A stretch of DNA of 64,000 nucleotides from the NCBI RefSeq assembly GCF_014851805.1, contig NZ_JACVAK010000005.1, positions 62,001 to 126,000 of the forward strand, read 5' to 3'. Of this stretch, positions 9,503-14,807 are shown piece by piece. The DNA comes from Pseudoxanthomonas sp. PXM02 (GTDB lineage Bacteria; Pseudomonadota; Gammaproteobacteria; Xanthomonadales; Xanthomonadaceae). A program made the translations under genes and the position numbers. The notes beneath the pieces were generated by a model, which was not told where the DNA came from, made no database searches, and worked only from the letters and a program-made list of their open reading frames with translations. Each line of letters opens with the position of its first letter. Positions within the stretch are counted from its first letter, which is position 1.

Positions 9503-9865
9503 ATGTCGTCACGCCCCCTGCAGACCTACACCGGCGCTTGCCACTGCGGCGCCATCCGCTTCGAGATCGACACCGAGTTCCCCGAGCTGACGCAGTGCGA
9601 CTGCTCGATCTGCCGCAAGAAGAACGCGTTGATGGTGAAGGTGCACGAGAGCGCCTTCCGCCTGCTGGCGGGGGAAGATGCGCTGGCCGACTACCAGTTC
9701 CACACGCACACCGCGCACCACCACTTCTGCAAGGTCTGCGGCATCTACCCGTTCCACCGCAAGCGCGTCACCCCGGACTACTACGGCATCAACGTGTACT
9801 GCCTGGACGGCTTCGATCCCGCCGGCATCCCCGTGCGGATGACCGTCGGTGCAGGCATGCCGTGA
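9503..9865 (+). CDS. GFA/CENP-V family zinc protein
   Basis: A 120-residue protein with the four-part cysteine pattern of glutathione-dependent formaldehyde-activating-like proteins: ACHCGAIRFEI, CDCSICRKKNA, and CKVCGIYPFHRKR. These cysteines bind zinc; the family enzyme adds formaldehyde to glutathione, but most members are uncharacterised. The ATG at 9503 fits the family start just ahead of the first motif; an in-frame ATG at 9476 would add nine residues. A TAGCAT -10-like element is at 9472-9477. Confidence 0.9.
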   Translation: MSSRPLQTYTGACHCGAIRFEIDTEFPELTQCDCSICRKKNALMVKVHESAFRLLAGEDALADYQFHTHTAHHHFCKVCGIYPFHRKRVTPDYYGINVYCLDGFDPAGIPVRMTVGAGMP

Positions 9866-9876
9866 CCGTCGCCGGG

Positions 9877-9882
9877 TAGACT
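9877..9882 (+). promoter_or_regulatory. -10-like TAGACT six bases before an ATG (leaderless start)
   Basis: TAGACT is followed by exactly six bases and the ATG at 9889. Transcription starting about 7 bases after the -10 would begin at the start codon. The same geometry is seen at ligA and mtnA. Confidence 0.5.
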
Positions 9883-9888
9883 GCGGCC

Positions 9889-10434
9889 ATGTGCCGATTC
9901 GTCACCGCCGTCCTTCCCGCCAGCGCGCCGCATGAGGCGTTGGATGCCATGGCACGTGCGCATGGTCGCCGCTTCTCGCGGGCGTCCAACCGCTCGGTAA
10001 TGCAGCAACTCGAAGCGGACGAAGCCTACTTCCTGACGACGCTCGGCCATTGCGATTGCGATGAGCCCGTCGGTGCGCTTCACCTCGGTAAGCCGGAGGA
10101 CTGGGACGAGACGGCCCGCAAGCTGGCGCGCAAGGGCTGGAGCGAAGGCAAGATCGCCCGCGCGGTGGCACAGAAACGCGAGCAGGCCGAAGCGGCCGAC
10201 GGCGTGAAACGACGGCACGCGGACGACGACCTGGCCCGCTGGCGCGCCTTCGTGGATGCCGTCCTTTCTTCGGGCCAGACCGACCGGCTGGGCCTGCTGC
10301 TGCACGTCTACAGCGGCACGCTGGACGATGAGCCGGTCGTGATCCGCGAGCGCCGCCCGGTCGGACGGACGGAGGATCGCGCCGGGCTGCTGTACGGCAT
10401 GGAAGAGGACGTGCTGTACCTGTTCCACGCCTGA
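9889..10434 (+). CDS. Conserved-looking cytoplasmic protein, unknown function
   Basis: A 181-residue protein that I cannot assign. It begins MCRFVTAVLPASAPHEALDAMARAHGRRF and has a distinctive YFLTTLGHCDCDEPVG motif, whose two cysteines and histidine could bind a metal. A charged helical middle (KLARKGWSEGKIARAVAQK) and a terminal beta strand (EEDVLYLFHA) follow. The gene is the last of the accessory block and is followed directly by the 21-base repeat array. A -10-like TAGACT lies six bases upstream of the ATG, so the message may be leaderless. Confidence 0.7.
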   Translation: MCRFVTAVLPASAPHEALDAMARAHGRRFSRASNRSVMQQLEADEAYFLTTLGHCDCDEPVGALHLGKPEDWDETARKLARKGWSEGKIARAVAQKREQAEAADGVKRRHADDDLARWRAFVDAVLSSGQTDRLGLLLHVYSGTLDDEPVVIRERRPVGRTEDRAGLLYGMEEDVLYLFHA

Positions 10435-10496
10435 CCCCGTCGGGCTGGCGTTCCACGCGCAGCACATCTCACATTCCCGCGGGCAGATGGCACGCT

Positions 10497-10878
10497 GAGC
10501 CCCATCGATGGCATTCCGAGTGCCATCCGCAAGGCTCGGAATCCCGACGATGGGGCACCAGAGCTCCATCGATGGCGCTCGGCGTGCCGTCGTCGGCATT
10601 CAAAGACCCATCGATCGCTTTCCGAATCCCGACGTCGGAGCTCCCGAGCCCCGACGGTGGCTTTCGGAAAGCCAGCGCCGGCACTCAAAGACCCAAAGCT
10701 CACACTTCGAGTCCCGACGTCGGAGCGCATGAGCTCCAGCGCTGGCTTTCGGAGCGCCGGCGCTGGCTCTCGAAAACCCGACGCTCACCTTCCGAGCCCC
10801 GACGTCGGAGCTCATGAGCTCCGGCGCTGGCTTTCAAAGAGCCGGCGCTGGCATTCCGGGCCTTGCGCGTGGAGCTCC
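10497..10878. repeat. Hierarchical tandem array of palindrome-centred 21-base units
   Basis: About 18 degenerate units of 21 bases run head to tail. Each starts GAG(C/T)-CC or AAGACC, has a central palindrome such as CCATCGATGG, CCGACGTCGG or CCAGCGCTGG, and ends GGC-TTTC/ATTC. Every fourth unit is 22 bases long (10539-10560, 10624-10645, 10709-10730, 10794-10815), giving an 85-base higher-order period: units at 10561, 10646, 10731 and 10816 resemble one another more than their neighbours. No open frame through it looks coding, and the one-base slip each 85 bases breaks any repeated reading frame. It fills the 558-base gap before ligA. Confidence 0.9.
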
Positions 10879-10980
10879 GCGGGCCATCTCGTTTGCGCTG
10901 ACCCGGTGGCACCGTCCGCCAGAGGGCAGGGACCGTCCTCGGCCGCCCGGTGCTGCACGCCCTGTCACAGTCGCCGGCCT

Positions 10981-13335
<2,355 letters not shown>

Positions 13336-13353
13336 GCGGCAGGAATGGTCGAT

Positions 13354-13444
13354 GTGGGAGCGACGTCAGTCGCGATCGCTTTCCGGATGCACGGACGCCC
13401 GGTCATGCCCTGATTCCGTTCATCGCGACTGACGTCGCTCCCAC
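13354..13444. repeat. REP inverted pair 1
   Basis: A 23-base arm starting GTGGGAGCGACGTCAGTCGC (13354-13376) and its exact reverse complement (13422-13444), 45 bases apart, just after the ligA stop. The arms would form a long hairpin in RNA from either strand. Confidence 0.9.
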
Positions 13445-13541
13445 ACCGGGTATCGCGCGATGAATGGGCAAGCCTTCGCGGGACGAAGCGCGGTTGCTGG
13501 CGTTTCCGGAGATGCATGCGTGAGCGACAGGGATGATCGGT

Positions 13542-13632
13542 GTGGGAGCGACGTAAGTCGCGATCGCTTTGCGAATGCGTGGACGCCCGGTCGTGCCCCG
13601 ATTCTGTTCACCGCGACTGACGTCGCTCCCAC
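13542..13632. repeat. REP inverted pair 2 (in duplicated unit)
   Basis: Arms at 13542-13564 and 13610-13632, exactly 188 bases after pair 1. The left arm reads GACGTAAGTCGC where the right-arm complement still carries the GACGTCAGTC form, so the arms mispair at one base. Confidence 0.9.
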
Positions 13633-13729
13633 ACCGGGTACCGCGCGATGAACGGGCAAGCCTTCGCGGGACGAAGCGCGGTTGCTGGCGTTTCCGGAGA
13701 TGCATGCGTGAGCGGCAGGGATGACCGAT

Positions 13730-13820
13730 GTGGGAGCGACGTAAGTCGCGATCGCTTTGCGGATGCGCGGACGACCGGCCGTGCCCCGATTCCGTTCATC
13801 GCGACTGACGTCGCTCCCAC
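13730..13820. repeat. REP inverted pair 3 (in duplicated unit)
   Basis: Arms at 13730-13752 and 13798-13820, again 188 bases on. The right arm ends 15 bases before the epmA start codon, so a hairpin could influence epmA expression. Confidence 0.9.
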
Positions 13821-13835
13821 GCCGGGTACCGCGCG

Positions 13836-14807
13836 ATGAAATGGCAACCGTCCGCATCGATGGAGGCCTTCCGTCAGCGCGCCCAACTCAACCGCCTCAT
13901 CCGCGAGTTCTTCCACGCGCGCAACGTGCTGGAAGTCGAGACGCCGATGATGTCGCGGGCGGGCAATACCGATCCGAACATTGCGTCGTTCTCGCTCGAA
14001 TTTTCCGGCCGCACCGATGGCGCACCGCGTACGCGCTGGCTGCGCACCTCGCCGGAGTTTCCGTTGAAGCGCCTGCTGGCGGCGGGTATCGGCGACTGCT
14101 ACGAGCTGGGGCGCGTGTTCCGTGATGGCGAAGCCGGGGGGCGGCACAACCCGGAGTTCACCATGCTGGAGTGGTACCGCGTGGGCTGGACGCTCGAACC
14201 GCTGATCGACGAGACGGTGGCGCTGGTGCAGGCGGCGCTGGCGATGATCGGCCGGCAGGCGACGGCATCGCGGATCAGCTTCCGCGATCTGTATCGGCAG
14301 CGGCTCGGCTTCGATCCGATGACCGCCGAGCTGGACGTGGTGCGCCATGCCGCCGCCGGCATCGCCATCGATGGTGAAGGACTGACGCGCGACGACTGGC
14401 TGGACCTGCTGATGACGCATGTGCTTCAACCTGCGTTCGGGCGCGACGAGATCCTCGTCGTGCACGACTATCCCGCCACGCAATCGGCGCTGGCGCGCGT
14501 GGTGGAGCGCGATGGCGTGCCGGTCGCGGAGCGGTTCGAGCTGTACCTCGGTGCGCTGGAACTGGCCAACGGCTACCACGAGCTGACCGATGCGGTGGAG
14601 CAGCGCACGCGCTTCGAGCGTGATGTCGTCGTGCGGCAGGCACGCGGCGATGTCGCGCCGCCGATCGACGATGCCTTGCTGGACGCGCTGGCCCACGGCA
14701 TGCCGGCGTGCGCGGGCGTGGCGCTGGGCGTGGACCGCCTGCTGATGGCGATGGGCGATACGGCGCGCATCGCCAATGTCGTCGCGTTCGACTTCGCGCG
14801 CGGCTGA
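13836..14807 (+). CDS. epmA: EF-P-(R)-beta-lysine ligase (GenX/PoxA)
   Basis: A 323-residue class II lysyl-tRNA-synthetase paralogue that lacks the anticodon-binding domain, the hallmark of EpmA, which attaches beta-lysine to elongation factor P. Motif 2 ([12 protein letters not shown] then [27 protein letters not shown]) and motif 3 ([14 protein letters not shown]) are intact, and EVETPMMS is the motif 1 region. The ATG at 13836 gives [16 protein letters not shown]. The first codons are echoed in the upstream tandem repeat. An 18-base perfect palindrome follows the stop. Confidence 0.95.
   Translation: [323 protein letters not shown]

Follow-up and report, generated by a model that had tools for sequence, protein, structure and literature searches.

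Helically phased arrays of CG-centred dyad units recur at fixed chromosomal places in Pseudoxanthomonas and may form a DNA binding platform

Upstream of ligA, the 64,000-nucleotide stretch of the Pseudoxanthomonas sp. PXM02 genome analyzed here (the window) contains a run of short degenerate repeats with dyad symmetry. The question that this locus raises is what such an array is, namely, a platform for a DNA-binding protein, a transcribed chain of hairpins, a topology element, or a functionless repeat. The preliminary description had proposed about 18 head-to-tail units of 21 bases, with every fourth unit extended to 22 bases. Its coordinates and unit length were confirmed (Table 1), and the slots follow a 21/21/21/22 grid, in which the 22-base steps occur after slots 3, 7, 11, and 15. 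The degenerate symmetry of one unit covers 20 bases. When the 17 slots listed individually were compared with a unit profile, 15 passed and 2 failed; slot 18 is degenerate and was assigned by eye.

Table 1. Coordinates of the ligA array and of neighboring features in the window
Feature	Position	Strand	Remarks
181-aa ORF	9889..10434	+	ends 62 nt before the array; gene status rests on the conserved 3' end in orthologues
CTCACATT	10468..10475	+	a short way to the left of the first unit
Array	10497..10878	.	18 slots, each of 21 or 22 bases; consensus of one unit, GARNNCCRNCGNYGGNNYTC and one further base
Starts of slots 1-6	10497, 10518, 10539, 10561, 10582, 10603
Starts of slots 7-12	10624, 10646, 10667, 10688, 10709, 10731
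Starts of slots 13-17	10752, 10773, 10794, 10816, 10837
Variant unit 2	10518..10538	+	contains GCAAGG
85-base block	10561..10853	+	four units (21+21+21+22); 3.4 copies at period 85 by Tandem Repeats Finder, 77% matches; local duplication, this array copy only
21-base period	10731..10856		Tandem Repeats Finder, period 21 x 6
Variant last slot (18)	10858..10878	+	contains CCTTGC, inverse of GCAAGG in unit 2
ligA, NAD-dependent DNA ligase	10993..13335	+	start 114 nt past the last slot
188-base tandem repeat	13292..13847		3.0 copies, 91% matches, directly after ligA

To assess whether the array could have arisen by chance, it was compared with 1000 dinucleotide-preserving shuffles. The array contains 8 exact 10-base palindromes (shuffle mean of 0.82 and maximum of 4), and its autocorrelation was 0.471 at 21 bases (shuffle maximum, 0.355) and 0.704 at 85 bases (shuffle maximum, 0.357). 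None of the 1000 shuffles attained any of these three values, so that a chance origin was rejected; a palindrome content no higher than that of shuffled sequence would have overturned the preliminary description, and the content seen here is well above it. Tandem Repeats Finder and autocorrelation also bore out the 85-base super-unit within this array. The claim of a 10-base palindrome at the center of each unit held in part: the palindrome is perfect at 6 centers (2 CCATCGATGG, 3 CCGACGTCGG, and 1 CCAGCGCTGG) and imperfect at the rest, CCGGCGCTGG, which had been named as an example, being no perfect palindrome either; 2 of the 8 exact palindromes are off-center.

The 181-residue ORF that precedes the array has no Pfam match at E <= 0.001, and it was dropped by the gene filter that we applied to array flanks. 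In Pseudoxanthomonas mexicana (L027), ligA lacks the upstream array and the ORF is missing too, and in G021 (L127) the array is present and the ORF absent; array and ORF are thus separable. The 188-base repeat that follows ligA includes a REP-like stem, GGGAGCGACGTAAGTCGCGATCGC.

A BLAST search with the ligA array led to three more arrays on other contigs, so that the PXM02 genome contains four. The 20-base pattern of one unit matched 28 sites in this 4.34-Mb genome, and all 28 lie inside the four arrays, leaving no lone exact unit elsewhere in the genome; the reversed pattern, used as a control, gave 2 matches. Higher-order blocks in the three other arrays were of 42/64 bases, none, and 106 bases, and in alignments with the ligA-site orthologues much of the repetitive stretch of the PXM02 array faces gaps. 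Judged from these alignments, the 85-base level stems from a local block duplication that is particular to the PXM02 ligA copy and is no feature of the family. One of the other PXM02 arrays, located between peptidase-like and endonuclease/phosphatase genes, is adjoined by a 90-base repeat of 2.2 copies (L023, 1805-2000).

Among the loci returned, the closest named relatives by LigA identity were Pseudoxanthomonas sp. PXM01 (97%) and P. japonensis (94%), and an array upstream of ligA is also present in PXM01, P. japonensis (type strain DSM 17109), Gammapro3, 3HH-4, and PXM03. The wider distribution was searched with a sequence-only model of four units. In the genus, 27 of 38 genomes had a match at E <= 0.01 (15 strong, with E < 1e-7, and 12 weak) and 11 of 38 had none; with 11 genomes lacking a match and 12 matching weakly, the arrays are, as far as this model detects them, dispensable within the genus. 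Across the family, 76 of 395 genomes, spread over 28 of 54 genera, matched at E <= 0.001, a count that includes weak matches; the four strong matches from other genera that were inspected showed units centered on ATCGAT and spaced by 21 bases or by multiples of 21. Of 299 genomes sampled from the order, 7 matched at E <= 1e-5, six of them in the same family and one in another. Matches are concentrated in arrays: the single-contig genomes G015 and G061 contain 5 and 6 arrays, which hold 41/41 and 49/50 of their matches at E <= 0.001, respectively. The first gene of G015 is, by eye, what we take to be dnaA. The idea that arrays are evenly spaced around the chromosome was dropped after a by-hand look at these two genomes, since spacing in G061 was not clearly even.

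The set analyzed below consists of 48 deduplicated arrays from 13 Pseudoxanthomonas genomes. It excludes arrays of other genera, 7 of 40 fetched stretches without a cluster of at least 4 units (L108, L131, L136, and L140-L143), and two further arrays of G061, as well as weaker search signals in G018 and G019. Array length ranged from 126 to 440 bases (median, 296). By their flanks, the 48 arrays fell into 8 sites with 13, 10, 7, 6, 5, 4, 2, and 1 arrays, and two arrays of one genome never occurred at the same site. The commonest site (pckG), between an HTH regulator gene and a PEP carboxykinase gene, was filled in all 13 genomes and the ligA site in 10 of 13. The flank survey covered 7 of the 8 sites, with ambiguous gene calls at one of them, and at 6 of these 7 a gene 3' end lies 21 to 166 nt from the array (site 1 by eye). 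The search of related genomes that the preliminary description had called for revealed arrays at fixed places and a general 21-base period.

Arrays at different sites share details of their left ends. Nine listed arrays at four different sites have GCAAGG at +32 relative to their start, in a listing that counts one array twice (L028 = L152) and includes four other-genus arrays. Such shared details make the arrays look, as wholes, like copies of a single ancestral element. A TCACA motif is located at -28 relative to the array start in several ligA-site orthologues, and CTCACATT / AATGTGAG (TCACA/TGTGA) recurs inside arrays (for example, L021, L023, and L107) in one orientation per array, with 70 majority and 6 minority occurrences over the 48 arrays. 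This motif resembles half of a CRP/Clp site, but its paired form has 4 bases between the halves, compared to 6 in the CRP/Clp site. A phage or plasmid origin was rejected, since no similar DNA was found in phage or plasmid records at E <= 0.01.

The spacing of units is strict. Steps between neighboring units in the 48 arrays were of 21 (274), 22 (31), and 23 (2) bases; steps of 20 bases were permitted by the scan and none occurred. Gaps longer than one unit fall near multiples of the unit step, and the mean period over 641 steps was 21.17 bases, or 10.58 bp per half unit, which is about two helical turns of DNA per unit. The proposal of dyads at two-helical-turn spacing is therefore well founded, and it extends to intergenic arrays of related genomes. 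The 22-base steps were slightly more evenly placed than permuted ones (22/1000 in the 48-array set and 1/500 in a larger undeduplicated set), only weakly beyond permutation, and this evenness is inflated by block duplication and shared descent.

Column identity between orthologous arrays, with a third sequence used to assign the column labels, was 0.68 to 0.91 in the core (columns 6-15) and 0.42 to 0.65 outside it (columns 3-5 and 16-18). Spacer identity was 0.53 to 0.66 between orthologous arrays versus 0.53 to 0.57 between non-orthologous ones, and unit-by-unit orthology is doubtful for most arrays because orthologous spacers are hardly more alike than non-orthologous ones. To judge from these identities, units sharing descent have lost spacer similarity and kept the core; homogenization between units could also raise core identity. 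The suggestion that symmetry is selected while its sequence is free was not borne out, as the core in 12 relatives is mostly CCATCGATGG (132 of the 208 matches to the core pattern CCNNCGNNGG).

Covariation within the unit hairpin, a further check that had been proposed, is lacking at the majority of stem pairs. Among 333 units from other genomes, complementarity was not above shuffles at pairs 5-16 (z 0.3) and 6-15 (z -0.8) and was below them at 7-14 (z -3.1; C-C or G-G in 125/333 units), whereas pairs 4-17 (z 3.4) and 3-18 (z 3.1) exceeded them. The inner pair 9-12 reached z 5.2 in the pooled 385 units, which dropped to 0.9 in the other genomes and 2.3 in PXM02; it is complementary in 11 of 15 ligA-array units versus 4.7 expected, several of these units being non-independent copies of one 85-base block. 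Self-complementary cores in PXM02 numbered 12/43 compared to 8.3 expected from independent half-sites (p = 0.09). Half-sites therefore vary nearly independently, with one restriction: in the relatives, CCATCGATCG and CGATCGATGG are common at columns 7/14, and the doubly changed CGATCGATCG, in which G7 coincides with C14 and both half-sites are weak, is avoided (8 units versus 22.2 expected, p 6e-5). Failed stem pairing and the mutual exclusion of weak half-sites are easier to reconcile with a protein that recognizes half-sites than with base pairing.

The core differs in PXM02. Since the unit profile was trained on the same arrays and favors the consensus, the difference was recounted with the bare pattern CCNNCGNNGG, of which CCATCGATGG accounts for only 6 of 43 matches in PXM02, compared to the above majority in the relatives. 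All four arrays are affected, with an ATCGAT core in 2/13, 2/11, 1/6, and 1/13 matches (Fisher 1.7e-9 versus relatives). Individual low arrays exist elsewhere (0/2, 0/2, 1/5, and 1/5), but PXM02 is the only genome with a low total, and the next lowest stands at 11/23. At the same time, the combination 7C-14G rose from 247/445 in relatives to 46/52 in PXM02 (p 1.9e-6), and R8/Y13 is retained in 52/52 PXM02 units, which argues for a shift of the core and not simple decay. Restriction-style avoidance of ATCGAT was rejected, as its sampled density in PXM02 (33.4 per 100 kb, over 263 kb) is similar to that in three relatives (37.9, 27.5, and 26.7 per 100 kb, over 140, 40, and 15 kb, respectively); observed/expected ratios under a maximal-order model were 0.70 in PXM02 and 0.85, 0.56, and 0.89 in the relatives. 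Gene conversion was also rejected, since spacers of the four PXM02 arrays (identity of 0.55 to 0.58, versus 0.53 to 0.57 for non-orthologous arrays of other genomes) bear no sign of recent exchange. The joint loss of ATCGAT suggests, as the simplest explanation, a change in a trans-acting reader; the alternative is relaxed selection on the four inner letters.

We lean towards the reading that the array is a DNA-level binding platform, one of the options offered by the preliminary description, on which a putative protein would assemble on same-face dyads past gene ends. Each slot would comprise two half-sites (CC-R-N-CG and its complement) around the central CG, and slots held some two helical turns apart would place 10 to 19 sites on the same face of the helix. 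A putative dimeric or higher-order DNA-binding protein could occupy adjacent slots and build up into a filament or wrap at these few fixed spots, mostly just past gene ends, with a role that is probably in chromosome organization or in the insulation of neighboring transcription. The phasing, the core constraint, the fixed positions, and the coordinated core change in one genome are observed features, from which we infer the protein, its binding, and its cellular role. LacI operators are CG-centered, and LacI was the only candidate reader family searched; it was found in 38/38 genus genomes and, giving no presence/absence signal, was set aside, so that no reader protein was found. The dispensability of the arrays in the genus, the weak evenness of the 22-base steps, and the doubtful unit-by-unit orthology also count against a platform. 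More tentatively, and with appreciable doubt, the arrays may be platform sites for a dedicated DNA-organizing protein of the Xanthomonadaceae/Lysobacteraceae, the specificity of which changed from CCATCGATGG to CCRNCGNYGG in the PXM02 lineage, with the arrays following together. If so, nature would have run a co-evolution experiment on a nucleoid-type protein together with its sites. On the platform reading in general, the core change in one genome would offer a route to the reader, namely, a DNA-binding protein with recognition residues altered only in that lineage. A platform would provide about 4 to 6 countable chromosomal sites per genome with a clear helix-face readout, would add a new class of chromosome-organizing sites in a family with few known ones, and would imply that intergenic palindrome arrays can persist via protein recognition and not hairpins.

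Set against the platform is an RNA-level element, in which units transcribed past the upstream stop codon would fold into hairpins that terminate transcription or shield the mRNA, as REP hairpins do at 3' ends. This is unlikely in our view but not negligible, given the strong in silico folding of both array strands and the polarity of the arrays. Of 12 strand tests (both strands of 6 arrays, with 60 shuffles per test), 10 gave a minimum free energy z of -7.2 to -11.9; a gene 3' end lies to one side at most sites examined, and the strong TCACA/TGTGA polarity agrees with gene direction in four same-strand contexts (by eye, one array each). However, the two strands fold about equally, the loop NCGN is among the conserved letters and needless for a hairpin, and only stem pairs 4-17 and 3-18 exceed shuffles, although this test addresses pairing within a unit and units could pair with other units. 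Known Rfam families were rejected for 9800-11200, where 12 matches up to E 5 were all under the gathering score.

Less likely still is a strong site for DNA gyrase, or a passive element of topology, like E. coli BIME-2, with phasing for DNA wrapping and no dedicated reader. The extended motif of E. coli gyrase shows phased 10-bp G/C variation, and the enzyme is enriched behind operons with high transcription and over-represented at BIME-2 (PMC6379681). The arrays resemble such sites as helically phased palindrome clusters that are intergenic and past gene ends, but their G/C oscillation is mainly at 5.29 bp (power 19.2) and weak at 10.58 (3.2); this explanation is somewhat weakened by a G/C rhythm that is mainly of 5.3 and less of 10.6 bases, and a core change in one genome only is hard to square with a conserved enzyme. 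We give a similarly low probability to neutral minisatellites, that is, functionless arrays left by the slippage and block duplication of an ancient palindromic unit. Plain block duplications (85, 106, 64, and 42 bases), the variable array length (126-440 bases), and the lack of strong arrays in many Pseudoxanthomonas genomes speak for this, whereas the cores are kept with spacers near background, 20-base steps never occur while 22 is common, and the same sites are filled in up to 13 genomes. A protein-coding repeat is hardly credible: long ORFs cross the array in several frames, but each fourth unit, being 22 bases long, moves the reading frame. Under the gene filter, none of the arrays at sites 1 to 5 is spanned by an ORF conserved across species, and those at sites 6 and 7 are overlapped by short ORFs in which the third-position bias is weak (0.58 and 0.50); the conserved protein that would have spoken against the preliminary description was thus not found at sites 1 to 5.

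No literature on such arrays was found among open-license PMC papers. We would file them as a new form of intergenic palindromic-repeat array, with REP, BIME, and SMAG as the nearest named kinds (PMC12306157, PMC2613905, and PMC3733652). Like REP/BIME, the units are short, clustered, often beyond gene ends, palindromic by the shuffle test, and intergenic by the flanks at 7 sites. REP/BIME are defined by a terminal unpaired GTAG or CGTC tag (PMC3733652), which is absent from the consensus GARNNCCRNCGNYGGNNYTC; they also differ in their many scattered copies, compared to few arrays per genome here and no lone exact copies in PXM02, and in the strict 21/22-base phasing seen here. Pfam scans of 10 flanking proteins revealed no transposase. 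SMAG of Stenotrophomonas maltophilia, of the same bacterial family, are likewise palindromic repeats in tandem at some loci, but they occur chromosome-wide as single units or pairs with 5- to 80-bp spacers and have a consensus, GTAGTGCCGGCCGCTGGCCGGCA (PMC2613905), that by eye is unlike ours. The BIME-2 gyrase site shares intergenic palindrome clusters and a phased DNA pattern with the arrays and differs by their G/C period of mainly 5.3 bp and the core shift in one genome. No linked regulator or partition gene was seen in the flanks examined. Repressors and partition proteins are known to use site arrays at helical spacing, as in ARG-box pairs, plasmid iterons, and centromeres. The arrays resemble these in having dyads some 21 bp apart on one face of the helix, and differ from them in comprising about 15 sites each at several chromosomal spots.
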